The notes under the pieces were generated by a model that made no database searches, was not told the DNA's origin, and saw only the letters and a program-made list of their open reading frames with translations. This document shows positions 9,321 through 56,681 of a DNA stretch of 64,000 bases, one piece after another. The stretch is from positions 186,001-250,000 of the forward strand of contig NZ_JAFGYF010000004.1 of the NCBI RefSeq assembly GCF_016921195.1, given 5' to 3'. The stretch's first letter is position 1. Every line of letters starts with the position of its first letter. Source of the stretch: Cellulosimicrobium cellulans (GTDB lineage: Bacteria; Actinomycetota; Actinomycetes; Actinomycetales; Cellulomonadaceae). The translations under genes and the position numbers were made by a program.

Positions 9321-9475
9321 AGCTGCGGTGACACAGCAGAGCCGTGGTGACGCGAGAGAGAACCCTGGTCGCGCGAGGTAGAACCGCAGTCGCGCGAGGT
9401 AGAACCGTGGTCGCGGGACCAGGGTTCTACCTCGCGCTACCGGGGTTCTACCTCGACGGTCCGGGGTTCTCCCTG
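9318..9475. repeat. 21-bp repeat array, forward then inverted, between hutG and hutI
   Basis: Forward units (TAGAACCNTGGTCGCGCGAGG type) have their AACC/AGCC cores at 9321, 9340 (both degenerate), 9361, 9382 and 9403. Inverted units follow with GGTTC cores at 9423, 9444 and 9465. The spacing is exactly 21 nt in the regular part. The two halves can fold into a long hairpin. The array starts at the hutG stop codon and runs into the 3' end of hutI. It is the same family as at 20.6-21.1 kb. Confidence 0.85.
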
Positions 9476-10830: not shown

Positions 10831-12533
<1,703 letters not shown>

Positions 12534-12570
12534 GGTCGTCTCGCTCCTTCGGGGTCGGGCGGGCGGGAGG

Positions 12571-14271: not shown

Positions 14272-14325
14272 GCCCCTAGGACACACCGCGCCTCGACGCG
14301 CCGGGAGCCCGGCACGGGAGGTTCA

Positions 14326-38370: not shown

Positions 38371-39306
38371 TCAGCAGGTCTCGAACACGTACGAGTAGGG
38401 CTCGCCCGTCTCCTCGACGGGGTCGAACCCGCTCACGTCCGTGTCGGGCGTGACGAGGTAGAGGTCGCGCAGCACGGTCAGGGGTGCGCGGTCGCCGAGA
38501 GCGCAGACGTCGGCGAACGTGAGGCCCTCGCCCGCGAGCGGGCCGGGGTACTCGACCTGCAGCACGTGGTCCCCGTACACGTCGGTGTACGCGGAGCACT
38601 CGTCCCAGACCGCGCACTCCTCGGTCACGGCGAAGTCAAAGCCAAGGTCGTCGTGCGCCACCTGCGTGATCTCCGCGGCGTTCTTCTGGGCGATGGCGAG
38701 CCCGGCGTCGTGCGCGAGACCGACGTACGCCGTCGCGAGCGCGTGCGCGCCGGCCTCGTCGAACTGGTCGAACCGGGTCCAGGTGTCGAGGTTGTCGATC
38801 TCGACGGCGTCGAACCCGTCGTCGGCGCACCCCGTGACGACCGGGCCGAGGAGGTCGAGGATCCCGTCCCGCTGCGCGGCGGTCGAGGGGTCGAGCACGA
38901 ACTCGTCCGGCCAGTCGGGGTCGATCACGAGCTCCCCGCCCGCGTCGTGCAGCAGGAGCTCCTCGTGGTCGAGCCAGAGGTCGGCGTCGTCGGGCTGCGT
39001 CTGGAACCCGTTGACGTAGCAGACGTTGTACGCGCCCGGGAGCGGCGCTGCCGTCGCGTCGCGCACCACCACGTCGGGGGTGACCGGCCCCGATCCCGCG
39101 TCGACCTGGTCGTAGGCACCGCCGAGCTGGTAGTCGAGGATCCCGCTCGTGGGCGGCAGCTCGACCGCCCCCGCGGTCGTCGCGTCAGTCGTGGCCGTGC
39201 GCGCCGCGTCCGGGACCGGGCTCGTGCCGCCGACGGCGGGCCCGCCCGCGCACGCGGTCAGCACCAGCGCCGAGCCGAGCGCCAGGCCGGTCGTCGTTCG
39301 TCTCAT
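38371..39306 (-). CDS. GH114-like endo-alpha-1,4-polygalactosaminidase lipoprotein
   Basis: 311 residues with a lipoprotein signal (SALVLTACAGG). The catalytic domain spans residues about 55-310: GILDYQLGGAYD, NVCYVNGFQTQPDD, the acidic active-site stretch GFDAVEIDNLDTW, LAIAQKNAAEI, and FDFAVTEECAVWDECSAY. These are the conserved blocks of glycoside hydrolase family 114 (PF03537), whose characterised members cut alpha-1,4-linked galactosamine polymers such as fungal galactosaminogalactan. It follows the aldolase gene on the same strand after 82 bp, so it probably ends the GH4-aldolase transcript and works outside the membrane to release oligomers. Confidence 0.85.
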   Translation of the reverse strand: MRRTTTGLALGSALVLTACAGGPAVGGTSPVPDAARTATTDATTAGAVELPPTSGILDYQLGGAYDQVDAGSGPVTPDVVVRDATAAPLPGAYNVCYVNGFQTQPDDADLWLDHEELLLHDAGGELVIDPDWPDEFVLDPSTAAQRDGILDLLGPVVTGCADDGFDAVEIDNLDTWTRFDQFDEAGAHALATAYVGLAHDAGLAIAQKNAAEITQVAHDDLGFDFAVTEECAVWDECSAYTDVYGDHVLQVEYPGPLAGEGLTFADVCALGDRAPLTVLRDLYLVTPDTDVSGFDPVEETGEPYSYVFETC

Positions 39307-39388
39307 GTGCTCGTTCCTCTCGTCGTGACGCGCTGCCCGCGCGCCATGGTGGGGGTGCCGATCAGGAGATGCAGGACGGTCCGAGGTG

Positions 39389-40237
39389 TCAGGCGAACAC
39401 CTGGGTGCAGAGCCGGTCGACGGCGTCGCGCACAGCCCCTCGCGCCGGGGCGAGGTACTTGCGGGGGTCAGTAACCCCGTCGTTCGCGTCGAGGAAGTCT
39501 CGCACCTGACGCGTGTAGCCGACGTTGAGCGCGGTCCCGACGTTGATCTTCCGGATCCCGCGTGCGACGGCGTCGCGCAGCATCGCGGCAGGCACGCCGG
39601 ACGACCCGTGCAGCACGAGCGGGACGGGGACCTCGGCGGCGATCCGCTCGACGAGGTCGAGGTCGAGCTCCGCGGTCGTGCTCGTCATGGCGTGGGAGCT
39701 GCCCACGGCGACGGCGAGCCCGTCGACACCGGTCGCGGCGACGAATGACGCCGCCTCGTGCGGGTCGGTCCGCACGCCGGGTGCGTGCGCACCGTCCTTG
39801 CCGCCGATCGCGCCGAGCTCGGCCTCGACCCACAGCGTGGTGTCGTGCGCGGACAGGGTGAGGTCGCGGGTCGTGGCGACGTTGTCCGCGTAGTCGAGGT
39901 GGGCGGCGTCGACCATGATCGACGTGATCCCGAGCCGCCACGCCTGGTCGACGACCTGGCGCGCGAGGTCGACGTCCTGGACGTGGTCGAGGTGCAGCGA
40001 GACCGGGACCCGTGCCGCGACGGCGATCTCCCGGCACGCGGCGACCAGCGCCGTCATGCGCCCCTCGTGGTAGCGGACGGCGTTCTCGCTGATCTGCAGG
40101 ATGCCGGGAGCCCCGGAGTCCTCGAGGCCGGCGACGACGCCCTCGGCGTGCTCGAGCGTGATGACGTTGAACGCGAGCACGGCGGCGCCGTCGCGCGCTG
40201 CCGCAGCGACGAGGTTCCCCGTCGCGGCCAGGGTCAC
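39389..40237 (-). CDS. Class II ketose-bisphosphate aldolase, probably tagatose-1,6-bisphosphate specific
   Basis: 282 residues from GTG 40237, overlapping the GH4 stop (GTGA). It is a class II aldolase TIM barrel: AFNVITLEHAEGVV, the zinc/catalytic stretch VSLHLDHVQDVD, VEAELGAIGGKDG, VLHGSSGVP with the second zinc His, and RKINVGTALN for phosphate binding. The length and GSSHAMTSTTAELDLDL region fit the KbaY/GatY/FbaA group. Context (SIS isomerase, LacC-like kinase) favours tagatose-1,6-bisphosphate, cleaved to dihydroxyacetone phosphate and glyceraldehyde phosphate. Fructose bisphosphate cannot be excluded. Confidence 0.85.
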   Translation of the reverse strand: MTLAATGNLVAAAARDGAAVLAFNVITLEHAEGVVAGLEDSGAPGILQISENAVRYHEGRMTALVAACREIAVAARVPVSLHLDHVQDVDLARQVVDQAWRLGITSIMVDAAHLDYADNVATTRDLTLSAHDTTLWVEAELGAIGGKDGAHAPGVRTDPHEAASFVAATGVDGLAVAVGSSHAMTSTTAELDLDLVERIAAEVPVPLVLHGSSGVPAAMLRDAVARGIRKINVGTALNVGYTRQVRDFLDANDGVTDPRKYLAPARGAVRDAVDRLCTQVFA

Positions 40238-41550
40238 AGGGCACCCGCCGGGACGAGGGCGCGGAGCGGCTCGGGCAGCAGGTCCCCGTGTGCCGCGACG
40301 AGCTCGTCGCACAGGGCCCAGATCTGCTCCGGCGTGAGGGTCGAGGACGCGTTCGGGTCCATGAGCACGGCCTGGCGGACGAGCCGGGGGTCGCCGGTGC
40401 GCGCTGCCTCCACGGTCAGCGCCCCGACGGAGACGTACGGCTGGTTGAGCGCCGCGCACTGGACGGGCAGCAGCCCCATCGGCACAGGACGCAGCCCGTC
40501 GCCGTCGACCGCCGCCGGGACCTCGACGACCGCGCCCTGCGGCAGGTTGTCGATCAGGCCGCGGTTCGGGACGTTGACGTGCACCTCGCGCGGCGTCCCG
40601 GTGACGAGCGAGTGGATGATCTGGGGCGCGTACTCGCTCGCGCCGTCCTCGAGCGCGAGGTCCTCGCCGGCGGCGAGCGCACGCCGCGCCGCCTCGAACT
40701 CCGCGACGTTCTCCCGGCTGATGCCGACGTACTCGAGCGGCTGGAGGCGGTAGCGCTCGACCTGCTCGTCGGAGCGGAGGAACCACGGCAGGTACTCGGA
40801 GGAGTGCTCGCTCGTCTCCGTCGGGTAGTAGCCGAGGCGGCGGAAGATCTCGACCCGGACGCGACGCTCGAGCCCGGGGTCTCGGCGGATCGTCTCGCGC
40901 AGCCGGGGGTACAGCGACTCGCCCCGGTGCTCCCACTCGAGCAGCCACGCCTGGTGGTTGACGCCCGCGGCCCGGTACCGCGTCTCCTCCACCGGGACGC
41001 CCACGAGCTCCGCGAGGTCGTGCGCGGTCCAGTAGACGGAGTGGCAGAGCCCGGCGACCTTGAGGTCGGGGGCGACGCTGGAGACCCACCACACGTTCAT
41101 CGCCATCGGGTTCGTGTAGTTGAGCAGCCACGCCTGAGGGCACAGCTCGCGCATGTCGGTCGCTATTCCCTCGAGCACCGGGAAGGTGCGCAGCGCGCGG
41201 AACACGCCACCGACGCCGGTCGTGTCGCCGATGGTCTGGCGCAGGCCGTGGCGTGCGGGGATCTCGAGGTCCTTCAGCGTCGCGTCGATGCCGCCGACCT
41301 GGATCATGTTGACGACGAAGTCGGCACCGTCGAGGGCCCGGCGACGGTCGGCGTACGCCTCGACGGTGGCCGACGCCCCGAGCTGGCTGCTCACCTGACG
41401 CGCGGTGCCCTCGGCGACGCGGAGCCGCTCGGGGTCGATGTCGTGCAGCACGAGGCGGGCGTCGGCGAGCTCCGGGTAGCGCAGGATGTCGGCGACGAGC
41501 TGGCGGGTGAAGACGACGCTCCCGGCGCCGACGAACGCGATGCTGACCAT
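40234..41550 (-). CDS. GH4 family glycosidase, alpha-galactosidase (MelA)-like
   Basis: 438 residues from ATG 41550. The Rossmann start SIAFVGAGSVVFTRQLVADILRYPELADARLVLHDIDPERL binds NAD; NMIQVGGIDATLKDLEIPARHGLRQTIGDTTGVGG and LLNYTNPMAMNVWWV follow. GLCHSVYWT carries the Cys metal ligand of the MelA group and AAGVNHQAWLLE the His. GH4 enzymes cleave alpha- or beta-glycosides by NAD/Mn-assisted oxidation and elimination in the cytoplasm. Alpha-galactosides or alpha-galactosaminides imported by the nearby ABC system are the likely substrate. It leads the run to the aldolase and GH114 genes and diverges from the DeoR gene across a shared operator. Confidence 0.9.
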   Translation of the reverse strand: MVSIAFVGAGSVVFTRQLVADILRYPELADARLVLHDIDPERLRVAEGTARQVSSQLGASATVEAYADRRRALDGADFVVNMIQVGGIDATLKDLEIPARHGLRQTIGDTTGVGGVFRALRTFPVLEGIATDMRELCPQAWLLNYTNPMAMNVWWVSSVAPDLKVAGLCHSVYWTAHDLAELVGVPVEETRYRAAGVNHQAWLLEWEHRGESLYPRLRETIRRDPGLERRVRVEIFRRLGYYPTETSEHSSEYLPWFLRSDEQVERYRLQPLEYVGISRENVAEFEAARRALAAGEDLALEDGASEYAPQIIHSLVTGTPREVHVNVPNRGLIDNLPQGAVVEVPAAVDGDGLRPVPMGLLPVQCAALNQPYVSVGALTVEAARTGDPRLVRQAVLMDPNASSTLTPEQIWALCDELVAAHGDLLPEPLRALVPAGAL

Positions 41551-41613
41551 GTCGACGATCCTCGGCGCCGTCGAGCGCACTGTGCAAGAATGCGATCAGA
41601 TTTCGCTGATAAC

Positions 41614-41631
41614 ACTCACTTTGATTGAGCG
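41614..41631. promoter_or_regulatory. DeoR-type operator, copy 1
   Basis: ACTCACTTTGATTGAGCG lies between the divergent GH4 and DeoR genes. It matches the sequence at 48807-48824 at 14 of 18 positions and contains the dyad CTCA-N7-TGAG. The shared motif at both promoters of this sugar region suggests the DeoR protein's binding site. Confidence 0.7.
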
Positions 41632-41694
41632 ATTTGCCTCGTCCGGGCACCGAGAGCCTCGGGCGTCCGCCCACCCACCGCCGGAAGGAAGCGC

Positions 41695-42552
41695 ATGTCC
41701 GTCGCACCCGACGCCGCGCCCCGCGCGATCTCCCACAAGCGCAGCGACCGCATGATGCGGGCGTTGACGTACGTCAACGAGCACGGCACGGCACGCCTCA
41801 CGGAGCTGGTCCGTGAGCTCGGCGTCTCGTCGGCCACGATGCGGCGCGACCTCGCGGACATGGAGGAGCAGGGCCTCGTGCTCCGCACGCACGGCGGGGT
41901 GCGCGCCCTCGACCCCACGACGGAGGTCCCGGTGCTCCTGCGCGACTCCCGGTTCCGCGAGGCGAAGCTGCGCATCGCCCAGCACGCCGCCGGGCTGCTC
42001 CCGCCGGGGCGCTACTCCGTCGCGATCAGCGGCGGCACGACGGCGGCGGCCGTCGCGCGCGCCCTGGCGACACGACCCGACCTCGCGATCGCCACGAACG
42101 CGCTGACGACGGCGACCGAGCTCGCCGCACGCAGCAACCTGCAGGTCATCATGACCGGCGGGTTCGTCCGGTCGAGCTCGCTGGAGGCCGTCGGCGTGCT
42201 CGCCGAGCACACGTTCAACGCGATCAACGTCGGCACCGCGTTCCTGGGCACGGACGGCATCAGCGTGCGCGGCGGCGCGACGACGCACGACGAGACGGAG
42301 GCGCGCACCAACCACGCGATGGTCGCGCACGCCGAGCGCGTCGTCGTGGTCGCGGACGGGTCGAAGGTGGGGCGCGTGACGCTCGCCAAGATGGCGGACC
42401 TCGAGGAGATCGACGTGCTCGTGACGGACTCGTCCGCCGACCCGGCGGCGCTCGACGCGATCGCCGCGGCCGGCGTCGACGTCCAGGTCGTGCCCGACGA
42501 CGGTCCGGTCGCGGCCGTGCAGCCGGCCGAGAGGCCGACCGCGCAGCCCTGA
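41695..42552 (+). CDS. DeoR-family sugar regulator
   Basis: 285 residues from ATG 41695, with GGAAGGAA about 5 nt upstream. The winged helix RMMRALTYVNEHGTARLTELVRELGVSSATMRRDLADMEEQGLVLRTHGGV is followed by the DeoRC sensor domain (AISGGTTAAAVARAL, TMTGG-type IMTGGFVRSSSLEAVG, FLGTDGISVRGGATTHDETEARTNHAM). DeoR proteins of this class are repressors released by sugar phosphates such as tagatose- or fructose-phosphates. It diverges from the GH4 gene and converges with the kinase operon. It is the likely regulator of both transcripts through the shared 18-bp motif. Confidence 0.92.
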   Translation: MSVAPDAAPRAISHKRSDRMMRALTYVNEHGTARLTELVRELGVSSATMRRDLADMEEQGLVLRTHGGVRALDPTTEVPVLLRDSRFREAKLRIAQHAAGLLPPGRYSVAISGGTTAAAVARALATRPDLAIATNALTTATELAARSNLQVIMTGGFVRSSSLEAVGVLAEHTFNAINVGTAFLGTDGISVRGGATTHDETEARTNHAMVAHAERVVVVADGSKVGRVTLAKMADLEEIDVLVTDSSADPAALDAIAAAGVDVQVVPDDGPVAAVQPAERPTAQP

Positions 42553-42566
42553 CCCCCGCAGCGGGT

Positions 42567-43502
42567 CTACGGCACCGGGAGCGCCACGGTCTCGACCTCG
42601 ACCTCGCCGACGAGACGGCGGGCCAGGTCCGCGTCCAGGACGGCCGCACCGGGGACCTGGGCGTTGGCCGTGCCCGCGGCGGCACCGAGCGCCACCGCCT
42701 CGGCGAGGGACGCTCCCGCGTCGAGCGCGACGAGCATCCCGCCAAGGAACGAGTCGCCGCTCCCCACCGGGAAGCGGCCGACGTGGCCCTCGAGCCGCAC
42801 GCGCAGGACGCTCGTGCCGTCGCTCGCCCACGCCCCCTCCGCGCCGTCCGTGACGACCACGAGGCCGCCCGATCGGTCGCGGAGCCCGGTGACGAGCCCC
42901 GGCCCCCGCGTGTCCACGGGGACGCCCAGCAGCTCCGCCGCCTCGGCCCGGTTCACCTTGACCAGGTCCGGACCCTCGCCCACGGCACCTGCGAGCGCCG
43001 GCCCGTGGCTGTCCACGGCGACGCTGGCACCCGCCGCCCGCAGCCGGCCGACGACGGTGCCGACCACGCTCGGCGCGATCGTGCCGGGGAGGCCGCCGGA
43101 CAGCAGCCACCACCCGCTGTCTCGCGCGGCGAGGTCGAGCGCGAGCCCCACGGCGCGGTCGAGCGTGTCCGGCTCCACGGGGACGGCACTCTCGTAGATC
43201 TCGGTGAGCGCACCGGTCTCTGCGGCAAGGACGGAGACGCACGTGCGGGTCGGGTGGGTTCCTGGCACGACGTGCAGGTCCACGCCGTCGGCCCTCGCCC
43301 CGGCCGCGACGTCCTCGCCCGACCCCCCGGCGAGGACCGCCACCGCCGCCGTACGGGCGCCGAGCGTCGCGGCGGCACGAGCCGCGTTGAGCGCCTTGCC
43401 TCCGCCGACGCGACGGACCTCGCGCGGGCGCTGGATCCCCTCGAGCGCGTCGACGACGTACGTGACGTCGAGCGACGGGCTGAGGGCGAGCGCGGAGATC
43501 AT
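42567..43502 (-). CDS. PfkB kinase of the LacC/FruK type (probable tagatose-6-phosphate kinase)
   Basis: 311 residues, ATG 43502 overlapping the previous stop (ATGA). Features are ALALSPSLDVTYVVDAL, the substrate loop GGGKALNAARAAATLGA, and the anion-hole/base motif PVGSGDSFLGGMLVALDAG. The opening and the GGGKALN loop place it with LacC tagatose-6-phosphate and FruK 1-phosphofructokinases rather than ribokinases. In this context it should make tagatose-1,6-bisphosphate for the aldolase at 39389. It is the last gene of the six-gene operon. Confidence 0.83.
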   Translation of the reverse strand: MISALALSPSLDVTYVVDALEGIQRPREVRRVGGGKALNAARAAATLGARTAAVAVLAGGSGEDVAAGARADGVDLHVVPGTHPTRTCVSVLAAETGALTEIYESAVPVEPDTLDRAVGLALDLAARDSGWWLLSGGLPGTIAPSVVGTVVGRLRAAGASVAVDSHGPALAGAVGEGPDLVKVNRAEAAELLGVPVDTRGPGLVTGLRDRSGGLVVVTDGAEGAWASDGTSVLRVRLEGHVGRFPVGSGDSFLGGMLVALDAGASLAEAVALGAAAGTANAQVPGAAVLDADLARRLVGEVEVETVALPVP

Positions 43503-44509
43503 GCGAGCGCGGCCCGCAGCGCGGCGAACGTGGCCTGCGCTCCGGTGCCGCCCGGGCCGAGCGTCGACAACGAGCCGGCGCAGGCCGCCCAGCGCACGCG
43601 CTCGGTCTCGTCCTCGATCCCGTGCGCGAGCGCCGCCAGGTATCCGGCGTCGAAGCTGTCACCGGCCCCGGTCGTGTCGACCACCTCCACAGCGAGCCCG
43701 GGGGCCCGCACGACGGCCCCGGCCGGTCCCACGGACCACCCACCGCGCGCACCGTCCTTGACCACGACGCGGGGGCCGCGCGCAGCGACCGCCCGGGCGA
43801 GCGCGACGTCGCGGTCACCGGTGTGCGCCGCGTCCTGAGGACCTGGGCCGAGCGCGCCCGCGACGGCGCGCAGCTCGTTGCGGTTCGGCAGCAGCACGTC
43901 CACGTGGGGCAGCAGGTCCGCGAGCCCGGTCCAGCGCTCGGCGGGGTCCCAGTTCGTGTCGAGGCTCGTCGTCCACCCCCGCTCGCGTGCGGACGCGAGG
44001 ACGGCGGGCAGGTCCGCGGCGAGTCGCGGCTGGAGGAAGTACGACGCGACGTGGACGACGCCGGGCGGCCCGTGCCAGCCGTCGAGCACGGCGAGCGCGT
44101 GCGAGCCCGTGAGGGTCGGGATCGTGCCCGGGACCGTGAGGATCGCCCGGTCGTCCGGCGTGGAGAGGATGACCGAAAGCCCCGTCGCCTCGCGGCGGGC
44201 GACGTCGACGGCGGACACGTCCACCCCGGCGGCGCGCAGCGCGTCGAGGGTGAAGGTGCCGAACGTGTCCGCGCCGACGCGCGCGACGAGCGTCGTCGGC
44301 ACCCCGAGGCGCGCGACGCCGGCGGCCGCGATGCTCGCCGAGCCGCCGAGGACGAGGTCACCGGAGTCCGCGAGCTGCTCGGCCTGGCCGAAGCGCGGGA
44401 CGACGTCACCACGCAGCACGAGGTCGACGTTCGCGTCCCCGACTACGACGACGGGTCGTGGGGCGGCGGTCCGGTCGGGTGCTGCGGGAACGGTGGGGGG
44501 CGTGGTCAT
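43499..44509 (-). CDS. PfkB-family carbohydrate kinase (ribokinase type)
   Basis: 336 residues, ATG 44509 overlapping the permease stop. PVVVVGDANVDLVLRGDVVPRFGQ and VLGGSASIAAAGVARLGVPTTLVARVGAD form the substrate side, and EVVDTTGAGDSFDAGYLAAL contains the catalytic Asp. It is of the ribokinase type and differs from the following LacC-like kinase. Because the operon imports free sugars through an ABC transporter, a first phosphorylation step is needed; this enzyme could phosphorylate galactosamine, N-acetylgalactosamine or galactose at C6 (inference). Confidence 0.82.
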   Translation of the reverse strand: MTTPPTVPAAPDRTAAPRPVVVVGDANVDLVLRGDVVPRFGQAEQLADSGDLVLGGSASIAAAGVARLGVPTTLVARVGADTFGTFTLDALRAAGVDVSAVDVARREATGLSVILSTPDDRAILTVPGTIPTLTGSHALAVLDGWHGPPGVVHVASYFLQPRLAADLPAVLASARERGWTTSLDTNWDPAERWTGLADLLPHVDVLLPNRNELRAVAGALGPGPQDAAHTGDRDVALARAVAARGPRVVVKDGARGGWSVGPAGAVVRAPGLAVEVVDTTGAGDSFDAGYLAALAHGIEDETERVRWAACAGSLSTLGPGGTGAQATFAALRAALA

Positions 44510-45447
44510 CCCTTGACTCCGGTGAAGGTCATGGTGGCGATGAACTGGCGCTGGGCGAACAGGAAGAACAGCACCAGCGGCAGGGTCGCGACGACGTTGC
44601 TCGCCATGAGCAGCGACCAGTCGGTCCGGCGCGCGCCCTGGAAGTTCGTGATCCCGAGCTGGAGCGTGAACGACGACGGGTCGTTGATCGCGATGAGCGG
44701 CCAGACGAGGTCGTTCCACGAGCCGAGCAGCGTGAAGATCGCGAGCGTCGCGAGCGCGGGCCGCGCGAGCGGGAGGATGATCCGCCAGAACGTGGAGAGC
44801 CGTGAGCACCCGTCGAGGACGGCCGCCTCCTCGAGCTCGGGCGGGAGCGACAGGAAGAACTGGCGCATGAGGAAGATCCCGAACGCCGACGCGAGCCACG
44901 GGACCATCGCGGCGGCGAGCGTGTCGATGATGCCGATGCGCGCGAAGAGGACGTACGTCGGGACCATGAGGAGCTGGGTCGGGATCATGATCGTCGCCAT
45001 GATCGCGAGGAATCCGAACGTGCGGCCCGGGAACTTGAGCCGCGCGAACCCGTACCCGGCGAGCGAGCAGAGCACGATGTGGGACGCGACGGCGACGACC
45101 GAGACGAGGACGGTGTTCGTCGTCCAGCGCAGCACGTCCGTCTCGGTGAAGAGCTTGACGTAGCCGTCGAGCGTGAGCTGCGAGGGCCAGAACCGCGGAG
45201 GGAACCGGTTGATCTCCGCCTCGGGTGTGAGCGACGTGAGGAACATCTGCACGAACGGCGTCGCGAACAGCACCGCGACGGGCACGAGCAGCAGGTGCCA
45301 GAGCCAGGTGCGTCGCCGCCGACGCCGCGGCGCTGCGGTGGCGGTGGTGGATGCCGGGGGCGGGCCGTCCGGGGCGCCGGGCGGCGCCGCCTGCGGTCCG
45401 CCGGGCGCCGCGGCGTACGCGGCGGGTCCGGGAACGGTCGTCGGCAT
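44506..45447 (-). CDS. Carbohydrate ABC transporter permease (MalG type)
   Basis: 313 residues from ATG 45447. A Pro/Ala-rich cytoplasmic head of about 50 residues is followed by six membrane spans beginning LWHLLLVPVAVLFATPFVQMFLTSL. The EAA loop EEAAVLDGCSRLSTFWRIILPLARPAL contacts the ATPase. The ending FIATMTFTGVKG is typical of the CUT1 second permease. Both ends overlap neighbours (TGATG and ATGA), so translation is coupled through the operon. Confidence 0.93.
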   Translation of the reverse strand: MPTTVPGPAAYAAAPGGPQAAPPGAPDGPPPASTTATAAPRRRRRRTWLWHLLLVPVAVLFATPFVQMFLTSLTPEAEINRFPPRFWPSQLTLDGYVKLFTETDVLRWTTNTVLVSVVAVASHIVLCSLAGYGFARLKFPGRTFGFLAIMATIMIPTQLLMVPTYVLFARIGIIDTLAAAMVPWLASAFGIFLMRQFFLSLPPELEEAAVLDGCSRLSTFWRIILPLARPALATLAIFTLLGSWNDLVWPLIAINDPSSFTLQLGITNFQGARRTDWSLLMASNVVATLPLVLFFLFAQRQFIATMTFTGVKG

Positions 45448-46367
45448 CAGAGTCCACCAACCTTCGTGCGGCGGGAGTAGAGCGTCACGGCGATGGTGAT
45501 GAGCAAGGTCACGGCGAACAGCCCGTACGCCACGGCTGATGCGTACCCGAACTCGAGCTCCTTGAACGCCGCCTTCCACAGGTAGTACACGACCGTCTCG
45601 GTCGACCCGAGCGGGCCGCCGCGCGTCGTCGTGTAGACGAGGTCGAAGAGCTGGATCGCCTGGATCGTCTGCCAGATCGCGACGAACACCGTGACCGGGG
45701 CGAGCTGGGGGAACGTCACGTGCCAGAAGGACTGCCACCGGTTCGCGCCGTCCACGCGGGCCGCCTCCGCGAGCTCGACCGGGATGTCCTGGAGCGCGGC
45801 GAGATAGATGACGGTCGTGAACGCGGCCTGGCCCCACAGCGACATGATCGTGATGACGACCATCGCCTGCGACGGGTCCTCGAGCCAGCCCTGCTGCGGG
45901 AGGCCGAGGACGCGCAGCACGTTGTTCACGAACCCGAACTGCGGGTTGAACAGGTAGGTCGTGAGGATGCCGGTGGCCGCCGCGGAGACCACGAACGGCA
46001 GGAACACGAGGGTGCGGTAGACCCCGACCAGGACGAGCCGGCGGTTGAGCGCGACTGCGAGGCCGAGCCCGAGGAAGAGCGAGGCCGGGACGAACAACGC
46101 GGTGTACAGGAGCGTGTGCCCCACCGCGGCGCCCAGCTCGGTGTCCGTCAGCATGCGCCGGTAGTTGTCCGCGCCCACCGGCTCCGGGGTGGAGAAGCCG
46201 TTCCAGTCCTGCAACGACAGCAGGAACGCCCAGACCGCGGGGAAGATCGACAGCCCGACGACGAGGAGCGTCGCGGGGGTGACGAAGCCCCACCCGGCGA
46301 GCGCCTCCCCCGTCCGGCGGCGCCGCGGGGCGCGCCGGGCGGGGGTGGGCGCAAGCGTCGTCGTCAC
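45447..46367 (-). CDS. Carbohydrate ABC transporter permease (MalF type)
   Basis: 306 residues from GTG 46367, overlapping the lipoprotein stop (GTGA). Six spans start at WGFVTPATLLVVGLSIFPAVWAFLLSLQDWNGFS. The EAA loop is ELAEAARVDGANRWQSFWHVTFPQLAPV. It pairs with the next permease to form the CUT1 channel. No ATP-binding subunit is encoded nearby; actinobacteria commonly share one MsiK-type ATPase among such systems. Confidence 0.93.
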   Translation of the reverse strand: MTTTLAPTPARRAPRRRRTGEALAGWGFVTPATLLVVGLSIFPAVWAFLLSLQDWNGFSTPEPVGADNYRRMLTDTELGAAVGHTLLYTALFVPASLFLGLGLAVALNRRLVLVGVYRTLVFLPFVVSAAATGILTTYLFNPQFGFVNNVLRVLGLPQQGWLEDPSQAMVVITIMSLWGQAAFTTVIYLAALQDIPVELAEAARVDGANRWQSFWHVTFPQLAPVTVFVAIWQTIQAIQLFDLVYTTTRGGPLGSTETVVYYLWKAAFKELEFGYASAVAYGLFAVTLLITIAVTLYSRRTKVGGL

Positions 46368-47707
46368 TGGTCCGCCAGCGCGTCGTTCGACGCGGCGGCG
46401 GCACGCTCGAGCGCCTCGCGCGGCTCGCCCTTGCCCTGGAGGACCTCCGAGACGGCCGTGCCGACCGCCTCGGAGAGGTTCACGTACCCCGGCACGGTCG
46501 GGCGCGGGATCGTGGCGTTCTCGCTGTTCTGGGCCATCACGTCCAGGCCGGGCATCGCCGCGACCTGCGCCTGGAACTCCGGCGAGTCGATCTCGCTCTC
46601 GCGCAGCGGGAGGTTGCCGTAGACGACGTTCCAGCGCACGTCCTGCTCGGGGTCGGTCAGCCACCTCGTGAACTCGTAGGCCCAGTGCTCGCGGTTCGCG
46701 TCCTGGTGGTCGAACAGGACCCACAGGTCGGCGCCGGAGATCGTCGTGTGCTCGCCGTCGTAGGCGGGCAGAGGGACGACGCCGTACTGCGTGCCCGCGA
46801 CCTGGAGGTCGTACAGCGTCCACGGACCCGACGTGACCATGCCGATCTGGTCGCTCGCGAAGATCTGCGTGAACTTGGTGTCCGTCTGGTCGAGGTAGAC
46901 CGACCCGTCCTCGACGGCCATGTCGCGCAGGAACGTCAGCGCGTCCACGCCCGCGTCGGAGTCGAACGTCGCCGTGGTGCCGGACTCGTCGAGGATCTCG
47001 CCGCCCCGCTGCCACAGGTGCGGCCAGAACTGCCAGGTCGTCTCCTCGGAGCCGGAGACGCCGTACGCGTAGCCGTAGGTGCTCGTCGCGGGGTCCGTGA
47101 GCTCTTTCGCCGCGGCACGGAAGTCGTCCCAGGTCCAGTCCTCGGTCGGGTAGTCCACGCCGGCGGCGTCGAACACCGTCTTGTTGTACAGGAGGGAGAG
47201 GTTGTCGACGACCGCAGGGAAGCCGATCGTCGTCTCGCCGTCCGGCTGCGCGGTGGCGCGAGCGGCCCCGGAGAACTCGTCCCAGCCGACGTCGGGGTCG
47301 CTCACCTGGTCGGTGATGTCGAGCGTGCGCTCCGACTCGGCGAGCTCGCTCGCCCAGGAGCCGAACGCGTAGGAGATGTCCGGGTAGGTGCCGCCCGCGA
47401 ACGAGGACGACAGCTTCTGCAGCAGGTCCTCCGTCGACGGCGCGCCCGAGGACACCTCGATCGTCACGTTGGGGTGGAGCTCCTCGAACTCCTCGGCGAG
47501 GCCCGTGAGGATGGTCTGGGCCTGGTCGGCCTGGCCGGTCCACCACGTGAGGGTGACGTCGGCCTCGGGGTCGAGGGTCGTGGCGCCCGGCGTCCCGGAC
47601 GAGCACGCCGCGAGCAGCAGCGCGCCGGAGACGACGACCGCTCCGGCGGCTCCCCGGGCCGCGGTGAGAGGACGGTCGGGACGGCGGCGGGTGGGATGAC
47701 GGAACAT
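46364..47707 (-). CDS. Carbohydrate ABC transporter substrate-binding lipoprotein
   Basis: 447 residues from ATG 47707. The lipobox is GALLLAACSSG. The mature protein is a family 1 solute-binding protein (VTLTWWTGQADQAQTILTGLAEEFEELHPNVTIEV, YPDISYAFGSWASELAESE, GFPAVVDNLSLLYNKTVFDAAG, FASDQIGMVTSGPW). It captures an oligosaccharide at the cell surface for the two permeases downstream. Its specificity cannot be read directly; context suggests galactosamine- or galactose-containing oligomers. Confidence 0.92.
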   Translation of the reverse strand: MFRHPTRRRPDRPLTAARGAAGAVVVSGALLLAACSSGTPGATTLDPEADVTLTWWTGQADQAQTILTGLAEEFEELHPNVTIEVSSGAPSTEDLLQKLSSSFAGGTYPDISYAFGSWASELAESERTLDITDQVSDPDVGWDEFSGAARATAQPDGETTIGFPAVVDNLSLLYNKTVFDAAGVDYPTEDWTWDDFRAAAKELTDPATSTYGYAYGVSGSEETTWQFWPHLWQRGGEILDESGTTATFDSDAGVDALTFLRDMAVEDGSVYLDQTDTKFTQIFASDQIGMVTSGPWTLYDLQVAGTQYGVVPLPAYDGEHTTISGADLWVLFDHQDANREHWAYEFTRWLTDPEQDVRWNVVYGNLPLRESEIDSPEFQAQVAAMPGLDVMAQNSENATIPRPTVPGYVNLSEAVGTAVSEVLQGKGEPREALERAAAASNDALADQ

Positions 47708-47791
47708 TGTCGGCCTTGTCTCTTGGGCGGTCTCTTCGTCGAGTGTCCGGGTACTGCGTCCCCGTCGGTGACGGGCTGTCGCGGGTCGTCC

Positions 47792-48679
47792 TCAGCCGAG
47801 GACGACGGAGCGGGTGAGGTGGCGCGGCGCGTCGGCGTCGAGGCCGCGGTCGGTCGCGAGGGCGACGGCGAGGCGCTGGCACTGCACGAGCTGGACCAGC
47901 GGGTCCCCGGCGAGGTGCACGACGGTCGCGCCGGTGCGCCGCACGTCCTCGGCGAGCGCCGGGTCGTCGTCGCCCAGCAGGATGACGAGCGTCGCGTCGG
48001 TCGCGACGGCGACCGGCCCGTGCCGGTAGTCGAGCGCCGGGTAGGACTCGGACCACGCCTGCGCCGCCTCGCGGACCTTCAGCGCCGCCTCCTGCGCGAG
48101 GCCGTAGGCCCACGAGCGGCCGAGGAACACGAAGTGCTCGAACGCGCCCGGCTCGACGGGCAGCGGCGCCGCGAGCGCCCGCTCGGCCTGCTCGACGAGG
48201 TCGGAGAGGTTCTCCCCGAACGTCTGGCGGGCGACGGCGAGCACGGTGGTCGGGAACCGCGTCTGGACGACCGACTCCTCGTCCGCGAGATCGAGCACGA
48301 GGACCTCGTCCGCCGCGAGAGCGACGGGCGTCCCGGCGACCCCGACGACCGCGGCGGTGCGCGTGCCCGCGGGGACGGCCGCGAGCGCCTCGAGGCACTC
48401 GCTCGTGGTCCCGGAACGGCTGATGACGACCACGCGGTCGTAGGGCCGCGTCGGGTGCCACTCCGACGCGTACGCGGCGTCGGTCTCGCCGAGGCCCGCG
48501 TCCTCACGGAGGACCGCGATCGCCTCGGCGACGAACGCGCTCGTCCCGCACCCGAGCACGAGGACGCGCTCGCCGGGCGCGCCGAGCACGGAACCGGTGG
48601 CGGGTCCGCCCGCGAGGGCCCTGGCCCACACCTCGGGCTGGCTGTGGATCTCTCGCTCGGTGACGGCGCTCGGGCTCAC
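47792..48679 (-). CDS. SIS-domain sugar-phosphate isomerase/deaminase, AgaS-like
   Basis: 295 residues from GTG 48679, with AGGA about 8 nt upstream; codons further upstream would run into the operator. Two SIS modules are seen: VLVLGCGTSAFVAEAIAVL with SRSGTTSECLEALAAVP, and VFLGRSWAYGLAQEAALKVREAAQAWSESYPALDYRHGPVAV. The last stretch resembles the isomerase half of glucosamine-6-phosphate synthase. AgaS proteins convert galactosamine-6-phosphate to tagatose-6-phosphate with release of ammonia. It is the first gene of the operon, 84 bp before the lipoprotein gene, and is divergent from the amidohydrolase. Confidence 0.8.
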   Translation of the reverse strand: MSPSAVTEREIHSQPEVWARALAGGPATGSVLGAPGERVLVLGCGTSAFVAEAIAVLREDAGLGETDAAYASEWHPTRPYDRVVVISRSGTTSECLEALAAVPAGTRTAAVVGVAGTPVALAADEVLVLDLADEESVVQTRFPTTVLAVARQTFGENLSDLVEQAERALAAPLPVEPGAFEHFVFLGRSWAYGLAQEAALKVREAAQAWSESYPALDYRHGPVAVATDATLVILLGDDDPALAEDVRRTGATVVHLAGDPLVQLVQCQRLAVALATDRGLDADAPRHLTRSVVLG

Positions 48680-48806
48680 GTGCTTGTCCTGTCGTCGGCG
48701 GGGCGGTGACCCCGGGTCCTGCGGTGGGTGGGTGCCGCGCGGCGCGGACCCGATGCCCACGATCCTGCTCATGATCTGCGCGATAGTCACGCAGAATGGC
48801 ACATTC

Positions 48807-48824
48807 ACTCACTCTAGATGAGCG
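48807..48824. promoter_or_regulatory. DeoR-type operator, copy 2
   Basis: ACTCACTCTAGATGAGCG lies between the divergent AgaS-like and amidohydrolase genes. It agrees with the motif at 41614-41631 at 14 of 18 positions, with the CTCA and TGAG half-sites conserved. It would let one regulator control the operon and the amidohydrolase together. Confidence 0.7.
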
Positions 48825-48874
48825 GTTCGCGTAACATCCGTGAAATCTGTGCGCGCAGGACCGATGCTCGGGAC

Positions 48875-49969
48875 GTGACCGATCCTCTCCACCACACCGC
48901 CCCGCCCCCGGCGCCGCCCGCACCCGACCTGCGGCTCGCCGACTGGGAGCCGCGTGCCCGCGTGCAGCTCCCCCGGACCGACGTCCCCCGGGCCGCGGTG
49001 CCCGCCGTCGACGTCCACAACCACCTGGGCCGCTGGCTCACCACCGACTGGTGCGCGCCCGACGTCCCGGCGCTGCTCGACCTGCTGGACCGCACGAACG
49101 TGCGCACGGTCGTCAACCTCGACGGCCTGTGGGGCGACGAGCTCGAGGCCAACCTCGACCGGTACGACCGCGCGCACCCGGGCCGGTTCCTCACCTTCTG
49201 CCAGGTCGACTGGACGGTGCTCGCCCACGCGGGCGGCGAGCGCGCGGTGCAGCGCCAGCTCCGCGACGCCGCGGCGCGCGGCGCCCGCGGGCTCAAGGTG
49301 TGGAAGAACCTCGGCCTGACCGTCACCGGCCCGGACGGCGCGCTCGTCGCGCCCGACGACCCGCGCGTCGTCGAGACGCTCGCGCTCGCGGGCGAGCTCG
49401 GGCTGCCCGTCCTGATCCACGTCGCCGACCCGAAGGCGTTCTTCGACCCGCTGGACCGGTACAACGAGCGCATCGACGAGCTCGCCGCGCAGCCGTCGTG
49501 GTCGTTCGCCGACCGGTCCCGCTTCCCGTCGTTCGAGCACCTGCTCGACGCGTTCGAGCAGCTGCTCGTCGCGACGCCGGGGACCACCTACGTCGGCGCG
49601 CACGTCGGCTGCGTCGCGGAGGACCTCGACCACGTCTCCCGGCTCCTGCGGGCCGCGCCGAACCTCGTCGTCGACATCGCGGGCCGGCTGGGCGAGCTCG
49701 GGCGTCAGCCACGGCGCTTCCGTCGGCTCGTCGAGGACTTCCCCGACCGGGTCCTGTTCGGCACCGACGCGTTCCCGTTGTCCCGCGCACAGCTCGAGAC
49801 GCACTTCCGGTTCCTCGAGACGGCCGACGAGCACTTCTCCTACGCCCCCGACGACCCCGTCCCGCCGCAGGGCCGGTGGGCCATCTCGGGAGCGGACCTC
49901 CCGGCGCACCTCCTGCCGGCTCTCTACGCGGACAACGCACGCCGCGTGCTCGGCCTCGACGGGGCCTGA
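48875..49969 (+). CDS. Amidohydrolase-2-family TIM-barrel metal hydrolase
   Basis: 364 residues from GTG 48875; ATG 48818 is in frame but overlaps the operator. Metal-binding residues are clear: AVDVHNHLGRW (HxH), RGLKVWKNLGL (Lys), LIHVADPKAFF (His), TYVGAHVG (His) and VLFGTDAFPLS (Asp). PF04909 enzymes act as decarboxylases, lactonases or hydrolases. Co-regulation with the sugar operon suggests a role on a sugar derivative, for example a lactone or N-acyl group, but this is not a NagA-type deacetylase by sequence. A GATGCT box ends 6 nt before the GTG. Confidence 0.8.
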   Translation: MTDPLHHTAPPPAPPAPDLRLADWEPRARVQLPRTDVPRAAVPAVDVHNHLGRWLTTDWCAPDVPALLDLLDRTNVRTVVNLDGLWGDELEANLDRYDRAHPGRFLTFCQVDWTVLAHAGGERAVQRQLRDAAARGARGLKVWKNLGLTVTGPDGALVAPDDPRVVETLALAGELGLPVLIHVADPKAFFDPLDRYNERIDELAAQPSWSFADRSRFPSFEHLLDAFEQLLVATPGTTYVGAHVGCVAEDLDHVSRLLRAAPNLVVDIAGRLGELGRQPRRFRRLVEDFPDRVLFGTDAFPLSRAQLETHFRFLETADEHFSYAPDDPVPPQGRWAISGADLPAHLLPALYADNARRVLGLDGA

Positions 49970-53198: not shown

Positions 53199-56100
53199 TC
53201 AGCCGGGGAGGCCGCGCATGCGACGGCGGGCGACGACGATCGTCGCGCCGCCCGCGATCAGCACGATCGCCAGGCCCACGAGGGCGCCGACGTGCGCACC
53301 GGTCGTGGCGAGCCCGTCCGGTCGGCTCGACCCCTCGCCGTCGGACCCGCCGGGCGTGCCGTCCGCCGCCAGCACCTCGAGCTCCGTCCACAGGACGCGG
53401 CCGTCCACCTGCCCGACGAGCGCGAACCGGTGCTCGCCCGCCGCGACGTCGACCGGGACGGTCACGGTCGCGGTGAGCGTGCCCGACGCGTCGGCGCGGT
53501 ACATCCCGAGGTCCGTCGGGGTCGAGAAGAGGGTCGCGGAGACCCACTCGCCGGGCGCGAAGCCCTCGGCCATCACGGTGACCCGCTCGCCCGCGCGGAC
53601 CCGCGCCGGGGAGAGCGTGACGCCGCCGTGGTTCGCGTCGGTGAGGTCGTCGGCGTCGACCGTGTGGAGCGGGGTCGACGGCGGCTGCTCGCCCGCGCCG
53701 GGCGTCTCGCCGGGCTCACCCGGTCCGCCCGGGTTCTCGCCGTCGAGGTGACCCTCGAACACGTCCGACGCCGCGCCGAGGCGCAGGAGCACGGTCTCGC
53801 CGGTGGCGTCGTCGAGGCCGTCGTTGTCGGTGATCGCCCAGACCGTGCCGTCGCCGCCGACCGTGAGGCCTTCGAGCTTCTCCTGCGTCCAGCCGTTCGT
53901 GGCGCGCAGGTCGGGCAGGACGTCGTGCGCGAGCGCCTTCTCGACCGCCACGGGGGTCGTGCTCGCCGCGCCGACCGCAGTCTCGGGGACGTCGACGGCG
54001 TACACGCGCTTCACCGCGGCCGCGGGGCCGTTGAGCTTGTCTCGCTCGATGACGGCGAGGGTGTCGTGGTCGACGACGGTCACCTCGCTGAGCCCCATCC
54101 AGTCGCCCTCGGTCGTGGTCTGCTCGAGCGGGTACGCGAACCAGTCCCACGTGCCCGACGCGACGTCGTAGCGACCGAGGCGCGCGGTGCCCGCCGTGCC
54201 GCCCTCGTCCGTGGTCAGGCCGCGCTGGAGCGCGACCCACACCTGCTCGCCCGCACCCGCGCCCGCCGTCGAGACCGCCGGGGCGACCGCGACGCCCTCG
54301 ATGCCCTGCTTGCCGAGGCCCGCGGCGACCGCCTCGGGCAGCGCGACGGACTCGACGACCGCGCCCGCGGCGTCGACGCGCACGATCGCGTTCTCGGCAC
54401 CGGTCGCGCCCTCGACGCCGAGCCAGAACCCGCCGTCGGCACGGGCCGCGACGCCCTCGACGTCGAGGCCCACCGGGGCGCCGTCGCGCGTGAGGGTCAC
54501 GGTCCGGTCGATGACGGCCGGGGAGCCGGCGCCGTAGCCGCTCACGTCGAGCGACAGGAGCTGCGTCGTGGAGTACGCGGCGTCGGTCGCCGTCCACAGG
54601 CGCTGGGGATCGCTCGGGTCGGCAGTCAGCGCACCGAGCGCGCCCCAGCCGATCGGAGTCCCGGCCTGCGGGCCCTCGGTCGTGTCCGCCGAGACGACGC
54701 TGGGGAACTGCGGCGACCCGGCGCCGTCGGCCCACTGCGCCCCCAGCCCGAACACGGTGACGGCCGACCGCACGCCCGCCCCGGCGTCGTCCTCCTCGCT
54801 CGACACGACGAGCAGGTCGCGCTCCGGCACGGCGAGCAGGCCCTCGGGGCCGTTCGTCGTCGCGAGCACCTGGACGAAACGCGGGGCGGTCGCATCGGTC
54901 ACGTCGTAGACCGCGACGAAGTTCGAGCGCTCGGAGCCGACGAACGCGTAGCGCGTCCCGCCGAGCGTCGCGACGGTCAGCCCCTCGGGCTCGACGCCCT
55001 TCTTGGCCGCGCGGTCCTCGGTGTGCAGGCCGACGCGGACGGCGAGGCGCTCGAGCTCTGCGCCCGCGTCCCACACGACCTCGCCCGAGGTCGCGTCGAA
55101 CACCGACCAGCCGCGCGAGCCGCCCTTCCAGTCGCCCTCGTTCGCGGTCGCGACGTGCGCGTCGTCGAGCCAACCGATCGCGTCGGGCTCGCGCGGCGTC
55201 GCGGGGATCGACCCGGTCTGGTCGATCACGCCGTCCTTCTTCACGTCGATCCCGGACACGGCGACCGCACCCGCCGAGAAGACGGTCTCGACCTCGCCCG
55301 AGGCGACGTCGACGACGGCGACGCCGTTGTTCTCCTGGAGCGTCACCGCGACCTTCGTGCCGGCCGGGTTGACGGCGACGTACTCGGGCTCGGGGTCCTG
55401 CGGGGTGTCCAGGCCGGCCGCCTCGACGACCGGGAGCGGCACGCCGCCCTCGTCGAGGAAGGAGACGGCGCGGGTCGACCAGGCCGCCGGGTCGTGGCCG
55501 GGCAGGTCGAGGATCTGGAGGAAACCGGCGGGGAGCTGCGGAAGGTCGCCCTCGTCACCACCCTCGGGCGCCGCCTCCTCGTCGCGCTGGTTCTCGATCG
55601 CGACGACGGCGTGCGTGCCGTCGGGCGTGACGGCGATCGAGTCGGGCTGTCCGCCGAGGTCGAGCGACCGGACGCGCTCGCGCGTCGCGAGGTCGACGAC
55701 GTCGAGGCGCCCGCTCGGCTCGGTGAAGCTCACCGACGTGTCCACCACGACGAGGACGTACCCGCCGACGATCGCGACCGACGTCGGCTCGTCGTGCTCG
55801 GAGCCGAGCTCGGCGAGGCTGAGCGTGCCCAGGCCCTTCGGCGCGCTCGGGTCGGTGATGTCCAGGAACCCGATGCGGCGCGCGGCGGCGTCGGTGTGGA
55901 CGACCGTCTTCCCGTCCTCGCTGACCGCCGAGATCTCGGCGACCGTCTCGGCCGCGGCGTCCTCGCCGGCCGGGCGGTTCTGGAACACGGGGTACGTGGC
56001 GAGGCGGTGGAACGTCTGGTCCACGGCGGGCGTCGTCCAGGCGTCCGCCACCGCGCGGGCCGTCCAGGTCGACGGCGCGGCGTCCGCCGGGTGCGTGGGA

Positions 56101-56249: not shown

Positions 56250-56681
56250 GTCTCTCCTTCGACGAGGGTCGAGCAGAGGGTGGTGTCCCGCGGTGGCGGG
56301 ACGGCGACCGGATCCGGACCGACGGGTGGCCGTCCGGTGAACAGTGCGCGGCAAGGCCCCTGACGGCCCCGGGGAGGTCCGGCGACGGCGCCACTTGCCC
56401 GGAGCGACGGGTTCTGGAGCGGAGTACCTGATACTTCGGCCTCGTGACCGAATCGTGACGGCAGAAGTACCTAGTACTCGCTGTCCGACCTGTCCCGGCG
56501 GTTGCTAGCGTCGTTCGAGATTTACCTGCTACTCCACGTCCCGCCAACGATGGTGGTCGTGGTCCCGGCCACTCCTGCGGCGGGCACCCCCGTGTCCCGC
56601 CTCTCCGCCCTCTCCCCCGCTTGTCTCCTCCCCTACTGCCGACCGCCCCGCGACGACGCCGGGCGCGAGGAAGGACGACAG
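56250..56681. promoter_or_regulatory. Divergent control region with three TACCT-NN-TACT motifs
   Basis: 432 bp without a gene between two surface-protein genes. Three direct copies of one motif occur: TACCTGATACTTC (56425-56437), TACCTAGTACTCG (56468-56480, within the palindrome AGTAC-CTA-GTACT) and TACCTGCTACTCC (56523-56535), spaced 43 and 55 bp. They are likely binding sites of one regulator acting on both genes. The regulator is unknown. Confidence 0.6.

Follow-up and report, generated by a model that had tools for sequence, protein, structure and literature searches.

What does a bacterium gain from a GH114 glycosidase encoded amid genes for sugar uptake and breakdown, as in the 64,000-nucleotide stretch of Cellulosimicrobium cellulans DNA analyzed here (the window)? 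Among the adhesive polysaccharides of mould and Pseudomonas biofilms are galactosaminogalactan and Pel, whose cleaving enzymes attract interest as anti-biofilm agents. A physiological role for the bacterial GH114 would follow from a conserved locus that links it to sugar import and catabolism. As far as its available text goes, a 2025 study of the GH114 and GH191 families leaves as a question why bacteria keep four such families, and found none of its selected bacterial GH114 enzymes usable in soluble form (PMC12054363). We consider it probable that the genes form a self-contained system, under DeoR control, for the use of alpha-linked galactosaminides, with the substrate and individual enzymatic steps predicted as set out below.

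Gene content and organization

Pfam profiles and ORF coordinates recovered intact genes at 38371-49969 for every family named in a preliminary description of this DNA (GH114, aldolase, MelA-like GH4, DeoR, two PfkB kinases, an ABC importer and a SIS-domain enzyme), along with an eleventh gene, coding for an amidohydrolase, that it had missed (Table 1).

Table 1. Genes and candidate operators of the locus (window coordinates)
Feature	Position	Strand	Evidence
GH114 (PF03537) surface lipoprotein, putative endo-alpha-1,4-galactosaminidase	38371..39306	-	lipobox LTAC; catalytic Asp171/Glu229
Class II aldolase, GatY/KbaY/FBA type, putative tagatose-1,6-bisphosphate aldolase	39389..40237	-	PF01116 261 bits
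GH4 NAD-dependent glycosidase, MelA-type subfamily, putative exo alpha-galactosaminidase	40234..41580	-	NF011657 574 bits
Candidate DeoR operator CACTCACTTTGATTGAGCG, deoR-GH4 gap	41613..41631	.	YRMTCA-N7-TGAKCR match
DeoR-family regulator, divergent from GH4	41695..42552	+	DeoRC 153 bits; HTH_DeoR
PfkB kinase a, LacC/1-PFK type, putative tagatose-6-phosphate kinase	42567..43502	-	PF00294 97.6 bits
PfkB kinase b, ribokinase/tagatose kinase type, putative galactosamine 6-kinase	43499..44509	-	PF00294 146.7 bits
ABC sugar permease 2	44506..45447	-	PF00528 (BPD_transp_1) 68 bits
ABC sugar permease 1	45447..46367	-	PF00528 (BPD_transp_1) 75 bits
ABC solute-binding lipoprotein (SBP)	46364..47707	-	SBP_bac_8 135 bits
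SIS-domain sugar isomerase/deaminase, putative galactosamine-6-phosphate deaminase/isomerase	47792..48679	-	PF01380
Candidate DeoR operator CACTCACTCTAGATGAGCG, SIS-amidohydrolase gap	48806..48824	.	second YRMTCA-N7-TGAKCR match
Amidohydrolase_2, metal-dependent TIM barrel	48818..49969	+	PF04909 58.7 bits

Neighboring genes overlap by 4, 4, 4, 4 and 1 bp (the aldolase start overlaps the GH4 stop by 4 bp), and the SIS-SBP and aldolase-GH114 spacings are only 84 and 82 bp; hence, we predict two leftward transcription units, GH4-aldolase-GH114 and SIS-SBP-permease-permease-PfkB-PfkB. The former is paired with the divergent deoR gene and the latter with the divergent amidohydrolase gene. A scan for sigma-70 promoters and terminators, giving none and one, respectively (0.1 and 1.6 expected), carries no weight here.

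The palindrome YRMTCA-N7-TGAKCR has just two matches in the whole 4.58 Mb genome, both at the promoters of the locus, which points to a local regulon under DeoR control; the reversed pattern gave no match in the same genome. This DeoR protein presumably binds these operators and represses from them. Across 80 related GH4 loci (1.57 Mb) there are 60 plus-strand sites, all but one (59/60) flanked by locus genes, including 28 in the DeoR-GH4 gap and 16 in the amidohydrolase-SIS gap, as against two sites in 1.82 Mb of GH114 regions. In Cellulomonas massiliensis, all three sites of the genome are at the locus; one of them precedes the gene of a distantly related GH114 by approximately 170 bp. The sites are less exclusive to the locus in some relatives, and 3 of 18 genomes have none at the GH4 gene. 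Since the listed ATG of the amidohydrolase sits within an operator, its true start is probably downstream; a longer in-frame SIS start, at 48808, would likewise reach into the operator. The GH4 start may be at residue 11, from which many relatives align.

A GH114 lipoprotein with an intact catalytic pair

The GH114 protein matches PF03537 with 140 bits (cut-off 27), a profile that also spans GH191 and hence is insufficient by itself for GH114 membership, according to the accessible part of PMC12054363. Its catalytic Asp171 and Glu229 occupy the Ega3 positions with a spacing of 58, and the pair is invariant in all 11 aligned GH114 copies from GH4 loci. The structural model has fungal endo-galactosaminidases as its nearest neighbors, with a fold closer to GH114 than to GH191 or GH166. 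Thus, the modeled fold and the Asp171/Glu229 pair match Ega3, making the protein a putative endo-galactosaminidase. It shares 22-24% identity in structural alignment with Ega3 of Aspergillus fumigatus and FsGH114, and differs from both in being a bacterial lipoprotein encoded inside a catabolic gene cluster, where its role would be nutritional.

GH4, SIS and the sugar-phosphate enzymes

The GH4 protein has both the N- and C-terminal GH4 domains (191 and 184 bits in Pfam), and its earlier designation as MelA-like holds, as it passes the cut-off of the MelA-type alpha-galactosidase subfamily model NF011657 (574 vs. 486) and shares 40% identity and the common motifs with E. coli MelA. It differs from MelA-type enzymes in its clade-specific residues beside the shared motifs (W184, Q210, W212 and S260) and in its neighborhood of SIS, aldolase and kinase genes. 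This context argues for an alpha-galactosaminide enzyme; since the subfamily cut-off is passed, alpha-galactosides are also possible substrates.

With TIGR02815, the model for the AgaS family, the SIS protein reaches only 39.9 bits (cut-off 529.2) and so falls outside that family by score; the label AgaS-like given to it earlier can apply at most to its class of function. Its nearest proteins are of the GlmS/GlmD/NagB-II type, and the best-scoring solved structures are GlmS or glucosamine-6-phosphate deaminase types, while 3 of 26 solved relatives carry the depositor name putative tagatose-6-phosphate ketose/aldose isomerase. The SIS enzyme, the aldolase, both kinases and the regulator each score below the cut-off of their best NCBIfam model. 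For the aldolase, the best models are those of GatY/tagatose-bisphosphate aldolases, in line with the KbaY/GatY type first proposed, but these too are below cut-off (218 vs. 383), and PfkB kinase a reaches 162.8 bits against the hexose kinase model TIGR03168 (cut-off 216). What is observed, then, is a SIS enzyme, PfkB kinase a and a class II aldolase encoded together, each under the cut-offs of its best models.

These GH4 and SIS affinities bear on the reading of the locus as one for alpha-galactosides (melibiose, raffinose or galactan), in which GH4 would be an alpha-galactosidase, PfkB kinase b would phosphorylate galactose at position 6 and the SIS enzyme would be a simple Gal-6-P/Tag-6-P isomerase leading to the tagatose route, with GH114 an accidental neighbor. 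The GH4 subfamily score, the likeness to MelA and the names of the three solved SIS relatives favor it, as does the alpha-1,4-galactose content of galactosaminogalactan reported in the accessible text of PMC3213105, whereby both activities could serve; further, most relatives lack GH114. Against it are the GlmS and deaminase affinities of the SIS enzyme, the GH4 clade residues that differ from MelA, the AgaS-like and NagK-like replacement genes and the repeated joining of GH114 far above chance (see below). We regard the alpha-galactoside reading as improbable.

Conservation of the locus and the recurrent association with GH114

Largely the same gene set, with or without GH114, recurs in many actinobacterial genera, so the grouping is above chance. 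Of the 80 related loci, 64 have a SIS gene no more than 10 kb from GH4, being of the present type in 53 and AgaS-like in 11. Some loci display an AgaS-like gene together with a BadF (NagK-like) kinase and/or KbaZ as non-orthologous replacements, with the BadF kinase found in certain loci lacking PfkB kinase b; the AgaS-like proteins of loci L174 and L137 (471 and 461 bits) also fall under the TIGR02815 cut-off. As these replacements suit the same steps, they favor an amino sugar substrate. An unclassified protein (L208:19502-21178) is also found repeatedly at related loci.

GH114 is present in 13 of the 80 loci, from 8 genera (0.14 expected), at varying places within them, with one copy behind its own operator site. 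In the sampled genomes, the two genes are at most 10 kb apart in 12/36, often co-directionally; besides the genome of the window, this holds for 4/15 GH4 genomes in the order sample and for 7/20 further ones in the class sample (0.03 expected in each case). All of these expectations rest on assumed mean genome sizes (4 and 6 Mb) and, in the class sample, on an assumed total of roughly 150 GH114 hits, and the named loci and sampled genomes partly overlap (G060 and L167, G033 and L227, G147 and L206, G292 and L201). None of the 23 control SIS operons without GH4 has GH114 nearby. At the genome level, GH114 is found in 14/16 GH4 genomes of the order sample (one a partial hit) vs. 79/281 others (p 2.8e-6, kinship ignored), with no significant co-occurrence in the class sample (10/20 vs. 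116/362; p 0.14, kinship ignored); hence, we dropped this argument in favor of co-location.

The converse survey in the order gave 106 GH114 hits beyond that of the window, of which 100 regions were used; the other six are G121 C1, G065 C19 (covered within L144), G065 C45, G040, G033 and G246. GH4 hits of any kind occur in just 5 regions, and the GH4-DeoR-ABC set in 2, while at E 1e-10 aldolase homologs appear in 2 (L058 and L060) and a SIS homolog in 1 (L130). Accordingly, the general pairing of GH114 with AgaS/KbaY homologs that had been put forward for checking does not hold; by gene neighborhood, GH114 is tied to the GH4 cluster.

GH114 is absent (within the up to 10 kb covered on either side) from 67 of the 80 loci, including an entire 41-row group of the GH4 tree (support 88). 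The trees are quick IQ-TREE searches with long branches flagged, and the GH114 tree omits three duplicate loci as well as any row shorter than 150 residues. Synteny without GH114, which the preliminary description held would count against it, is thus partly what we see, yet GH114 joins recurrently. The gene set thus resembles a general module for alpha-galactosaminides, to which GH114, an optional but real partner, would add a polymer-cutting front end.

Galactosamine or N-acetylgalactosamine

The eleven genes of the locus include no AgaA/NagA deacetylase. The amidohydrolase was considered for this part and set aside, as a sequence search of solved structures at E 0.01 gave no match and its fold relatives are generic amidohydrolase_2 proteins. 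Though conserved, it plays no part in the scheme proposed below. The NagA model has a single match in the genome, on another contig and below cut-off (210.6 vs. 225.65 bits), so GalNAc is a possible substrate. The corresponding alternative is that N-acetylgalactosamine oligosaccharides (acetylated galactosaminogalactan, O-glycans or teichoic acid side chains) are used, with this NagA-like protein deacetylating them and GH114 acting on partly acetylated polymer. A second GH4 cluster type (L201, L206 and L213), in which NagA accompanies AgaS-like and KbaZ genes, is in keeping with it, as is the ability of NagA to replace AgaA in E. coli (accessible text of PMC12118421). Conversely, agaA is treated as crucial for GalNAc use in the available portion of PMC4694137, and NagA is near just 3 of 49 related loci having a SIS protein of at least 55% identity; this point is blunted by the control SIS operons, 15/20 of which also lack NagA (5/20 have it), and we do not use the absence of NagA as proof of GalN. 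The GH114 family is also expected to select deacetylated stretches, per the consulted part of PMC12054363. On balance, we deem the GalNAc alternative unlikely; the preference for GalN, like the GH4 specificity, is what we infer from these contexts.

A predicted galactosaminide pathway

In the galactosaminide pathway, the lipid-anchored GH114 would cut an extracellular alpha-1,4-galactosamine polymer, such as fungal galactosaminogalactan or a bacterial Pel-like slime, and the oligomers would enter via the ABC importer. In the cytoplasm, the NAD-dependent GH4 would free galactosamine, to be converted by PfkB kinase b to galactosamine-6-phosphate, by the SIS enzyme to tagatose-6-phosphate (deamination and isomerization) and by PfkB kinase a to tagatose-1,6-bisphosphate, which the aldolase would split. 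The outline proposed at the outset is sustained by the widespread SIS gene, the replacements, the shared operator and the recurrent GH114; it is amended in that GH114 is optional, and GalN and the GH4 specificity stay predictions. We tentatively go further, with somewhat less than even confidence, and posit a dedicated ABC-dependent actinobacterial pathway for cationic alpha-1,4-galactosamine exopolysaccharides, with this GH4 clade as NAD-dependent exo-alpha-galactosaminidases, PfkB kinase b as a galactosamine 6-kinase and GH114 in a nutritional role against galactosaminogalactan or Pel. To our knowledge, such an exo-activity would be new for GH4. The locus also supplies candidate GH114 proteins with intact catalytic residues and makes the role of bacterial GH114 testable in soil strains.

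Comparison with known systems

Among the matches listed from open-licence PMC literature (titles and abstract beginnings), we found no paper on an ABC-type route for galactosamine that includes a GH114 gene. The GalNAc route of Shewanella, in the accessible text of PMC12118421, comprises the AgaP permease, the AgaK kinase and a deacetylation step. It resembles the present locus in non-PTS uptake and a separate kinase, and differs in having a permease rather than an ABC oligosaccharide importer and in using GalNAc with deacetylation. We know of no part played by GH4 or GH114 in that route. The aga/gam systems of E. coli and streptococci (AgaS, LacC or AgaZ/KbaZ, AgaY/KbaY and AgaR) share the proposed intermediates, from GalN-6-P via Tag-6-P and Tag-1,6-P2 to trioses. 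The aga pathway is described in the available part of PMC4694137 as having a DeoR-type regulator with palindromic sites, as we propose here; as in an AgaR-type regulon, the palindrome stands at both pathway promoters, with AgaR being the best NCBIfam model of the regulator, albeit below cut-off (180 vs. 260 bits). The locus has no PTS genes and instead combines an ABC importer with a separate PfkB sugar kinase; further, its SIS enzyme is outside the AgaS family by score and it lacks AgaA/NagA. We therefore call it a variant of the known aga pathway, in which GH4 and GH114 would supply polymer-derived oligomers.

Locus organization and a shared operator

The locus comprises eleven genes in a genome of 4.58 Mb, whose nearest named relatives are strains of Cellulosimicrobium cellulans (the GH4 of L152, one of the 80 named GH4 loci L152-L231 sampled here, is 98% identical to that of the window). 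Adjacent genes either share 1-4 bp or stand a short distance apart, implying two leftward transcription units (see table), with the DeoR and amidohydrolase genes running opposite to them, each from one shared promoter region. Pfam and NCBIfam searches bore out the gene families named in the preliminary description; the SIS protein, the putative GalN-6-P deaminase/isomerase that it called AgaS-like, falls outside the AgaS family by score (39.9 bits versus a family cut-off of 529). The best of this protein's 26 matches to solved structures are of the GlmS or glucosamine-6-phosphate deaminase types, and three of the 26 carry the name putative tagatose-6-phosphate isomerase. The amidohydrolase_2 protein keeps the His/Asp/Lys positions typical of its fold, and some of the loci with its homologues are without SIS and aldolase.

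Both promoter gaps have in common one 19-bp palindrome, YRMTCA-N7-TGAKCR, the predicted DeoR operator; a whole-genome pattern search finds only these two sites in the host, where a reversed control pattern has no matches. On the plus strand of the 80 GH4 loci (1.57 Mb) there are 60 sites, lying in the DeoR-GH4 gap (28), the amidohydrolase-SIS gap (16), elsewhere before SIS (11) or in other places (5); a single one, in L229, is without locus genes on both flanks and lies 3 kb away from them. One hundred GH114 regions (1.82 Mb) hold two sites, one of them in the copy of the window locus in the surveyed genome G120. All 18 genomes searched have sites, and their exclusiveness to the locus differs: Actinomyces culturomici has one, upstream of GH4-GH114; Cellulomonas massiliensis has three, every one at the locus, the third ~170 bp upstream of a GH114 gene (product 24% identical to that of the window); G304 has at least 18 forward matches; in G302 and G303 reversed-control matches are about as many as forward ones; and none lies at the GH4 gene of G147, G292 or G197. 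The two promoters of the locus are predicted to be one regulon.

Features of the locus, the window and related loci
Feature	Position	Strand	Content
Locus	window 38371-49969		Eleven genes
Leftward unit 1			GH4, aldolase, GH114 (82 bp between aldolase and GH114)
Leftward unit 2			SIS, solute-binding lipoprotein (SBP), permease 1, permease 2, PfkB b, PfkB a
Operator site	window 41613-41631		YRMTCA-N7-TGAKCR
Operator site	window 48806-48824		YRMTCA-N7-TGAKCR
Amidohydrolase_2 gene	window 48818-49969		
Melibiase-related protein	L195:7455-8993	-	PF02065
Unclassified protein	L208:19502-21178	+	550-600 aa, secretion-type N-terminus
Gene group	window 8268-14286		Arginase-family, amidohydrolase and aromatic amino acid lyase genes
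1545-aa protein	window 1704-6341		Glucose/sorbosone dehydrogenase, PKD, weak CBM6, two xylose-isomerase-like barrel matches
1051-aa protein	window 53199-56354		Phytase-like esterase and choice-of-anchor I domains

Elsewhere in the window, the arginase-family gene group is perhaps a histidine-utilisation cluster.

GH114 as an optional module

By HMM search, GH114 is found in 13 of the 80 GH4 loci, across eight genera (four in Cellulosimicrobium, three in Microbacterium and one each in Frigoribacterium, Cellulomonas, Amorphoplanes, Nonomuraea, Streptomyces and Actinomyces), against a chance expectation of 0.14 at the order-survey density (106 GH114 matches in 297 genomes, assumed to be 4 Mb each); control SIS-aldolase loci without a GH4 match have it in 0 of 23. 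Two further samples were not picked for GH114-GH4 linkage. The order survey (297 genomes) has GH114 in 93 and window-type GH4 in 16 (E 1e-100), with the two within 10 kb in four of the 15 besides the host (G120, G065, G107, G064); the class survey (384 genomes) has GH4 in 22 and GH114 in 127, the two lying within 5 kb in seven of the 20 GH4 genomes not counted before (~0.03 expected). Together with the host, this makes 12 of 36. Gene order varies. Cellulosimicrobium, Microbacterium, Frigoribacterium and Actinomyces have GH4-(aldolase)-GH114, and Amorphoplanes has GH114-PfkB a-aldolase; the arrangement is GH114-SBP-permease-permease-(PfkB b)-GH4 in three genomes of one genus as well as in Streptomyces varsoviensis, and GH114-PfkB b-GH4 in one further genus. 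Residence in the locus requires eight changes on the GH114 tree (six forced by starred branches), and GH114 presence nine on the GH4 tree (eight forced), gain and loss being inseparable in both. GH114 is absent from 67 of the 80 loci, including a whole 41-row GH4 tree group (support 88). The majority of GH114 genes are found outside such loci: five of the 100 GH114 regions have any GH4 match, and two have the GH4-DeoR-ABC set. In this distribution GH114 is a recurrent, optional module of the locus.

Six related GH4 loci encode an unclassified protein (L208, L205, L221, L226, L227, the same as locus L142, and L263) with no Pfam match at 0.001 and no solved relative at E 1. The five named loci are without GH114 and L263 has it; the protein could be another, undescribed surface glycosidase.

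Replacement of pathway genes and the sugar processed

In the 80 loci, several shortened by contig ends, tblastn (which includes weak homologues) finds DeoR-like proteins and permeases in 74 each, SBP in 72, PfkB b-like kinases in 54, the amidohydrolase in 53, the aldolase in 43 and PfkB a-like kinases in 35. Window-type SIS is present in 53 and an AgaS-like SIS in 11 others (64 in total); six of the 16 without either are stretches shorter than 15 kb. Curtobacterium, Amnibacterium and others combine the DeoR-GH4-ABC core with an AgaS-like gene and a BadF-family kinase, or with a KbaZ homologue. The AgaS-like replacements best match TIGR02815 (representatives at 461-471 bits, under the 529 cut-off), the kinase is nearest to NagK (74 bits, far under 370), and the KbaZ representative from L206 exceeds the TIGR02810 cut-off. 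Were plain galactose the sugar, the fitting of such different proteins to identical steps would be hard to explain.

The window GH4 itself passes the MelA-type alpha-galactosidase cut-off (574 versus 486) and shares 40% identity with the E. coli MelA protein. Its clade has 145 columns conserved at 95% or more; 103 of them match MelA, among them those of the glycine-rich, CHS and NH motifs, and the 42 that are unlike MelA include several abutting these shared motifs (W184, Q210, W212, S260), which would suit an altered specificity and do not prove it. Melibiase-related PF02065 proteins are encoded close to GH4 in Curtobacterium and others (L195, with homologues in L155, L163, L172, L182 and L190).

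The putative amino-sugar pathway of the preliminary description is the best-supported reading of these sequences: operator, synteny and replacement evidence favor it. GH114, its proposed surface enzyme, is a recurrent optional module. Cellulosimicrobium lyses fungal walls with zymolyase-type enzymes, and a fungal polymer as substrate would fit this habit.

A second GH4 cluster type, in L201, L206 and L213 (10.0-20.5 kb), unites GH4, a Gfo/Idh/MocA protein, KbaZ, an AgaS-like SIS and NagA, to which L213 adds one protein of DUF4832/DUF4874 type and one that is luciferase-like; it looks like a GalNAc version. The window locus has no deacetylase gene, and the single NagA-like gene of the host lies outside it, slightly under the model cut-off. 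A nearby NagA was rejected as a discriminator of GalN from GalNAc (three of 49 related loci versus five of 20 control operons). The preference for deacetylated polymer that is expected of GH114 (PMC12054363) leans to GalN. The published GalN/GalNAc route (PMC4694137, PMC12118421) passes through the intermediates proposed here; its uptake step is a PTS or, for Shewanella, a permease together with a kinase.
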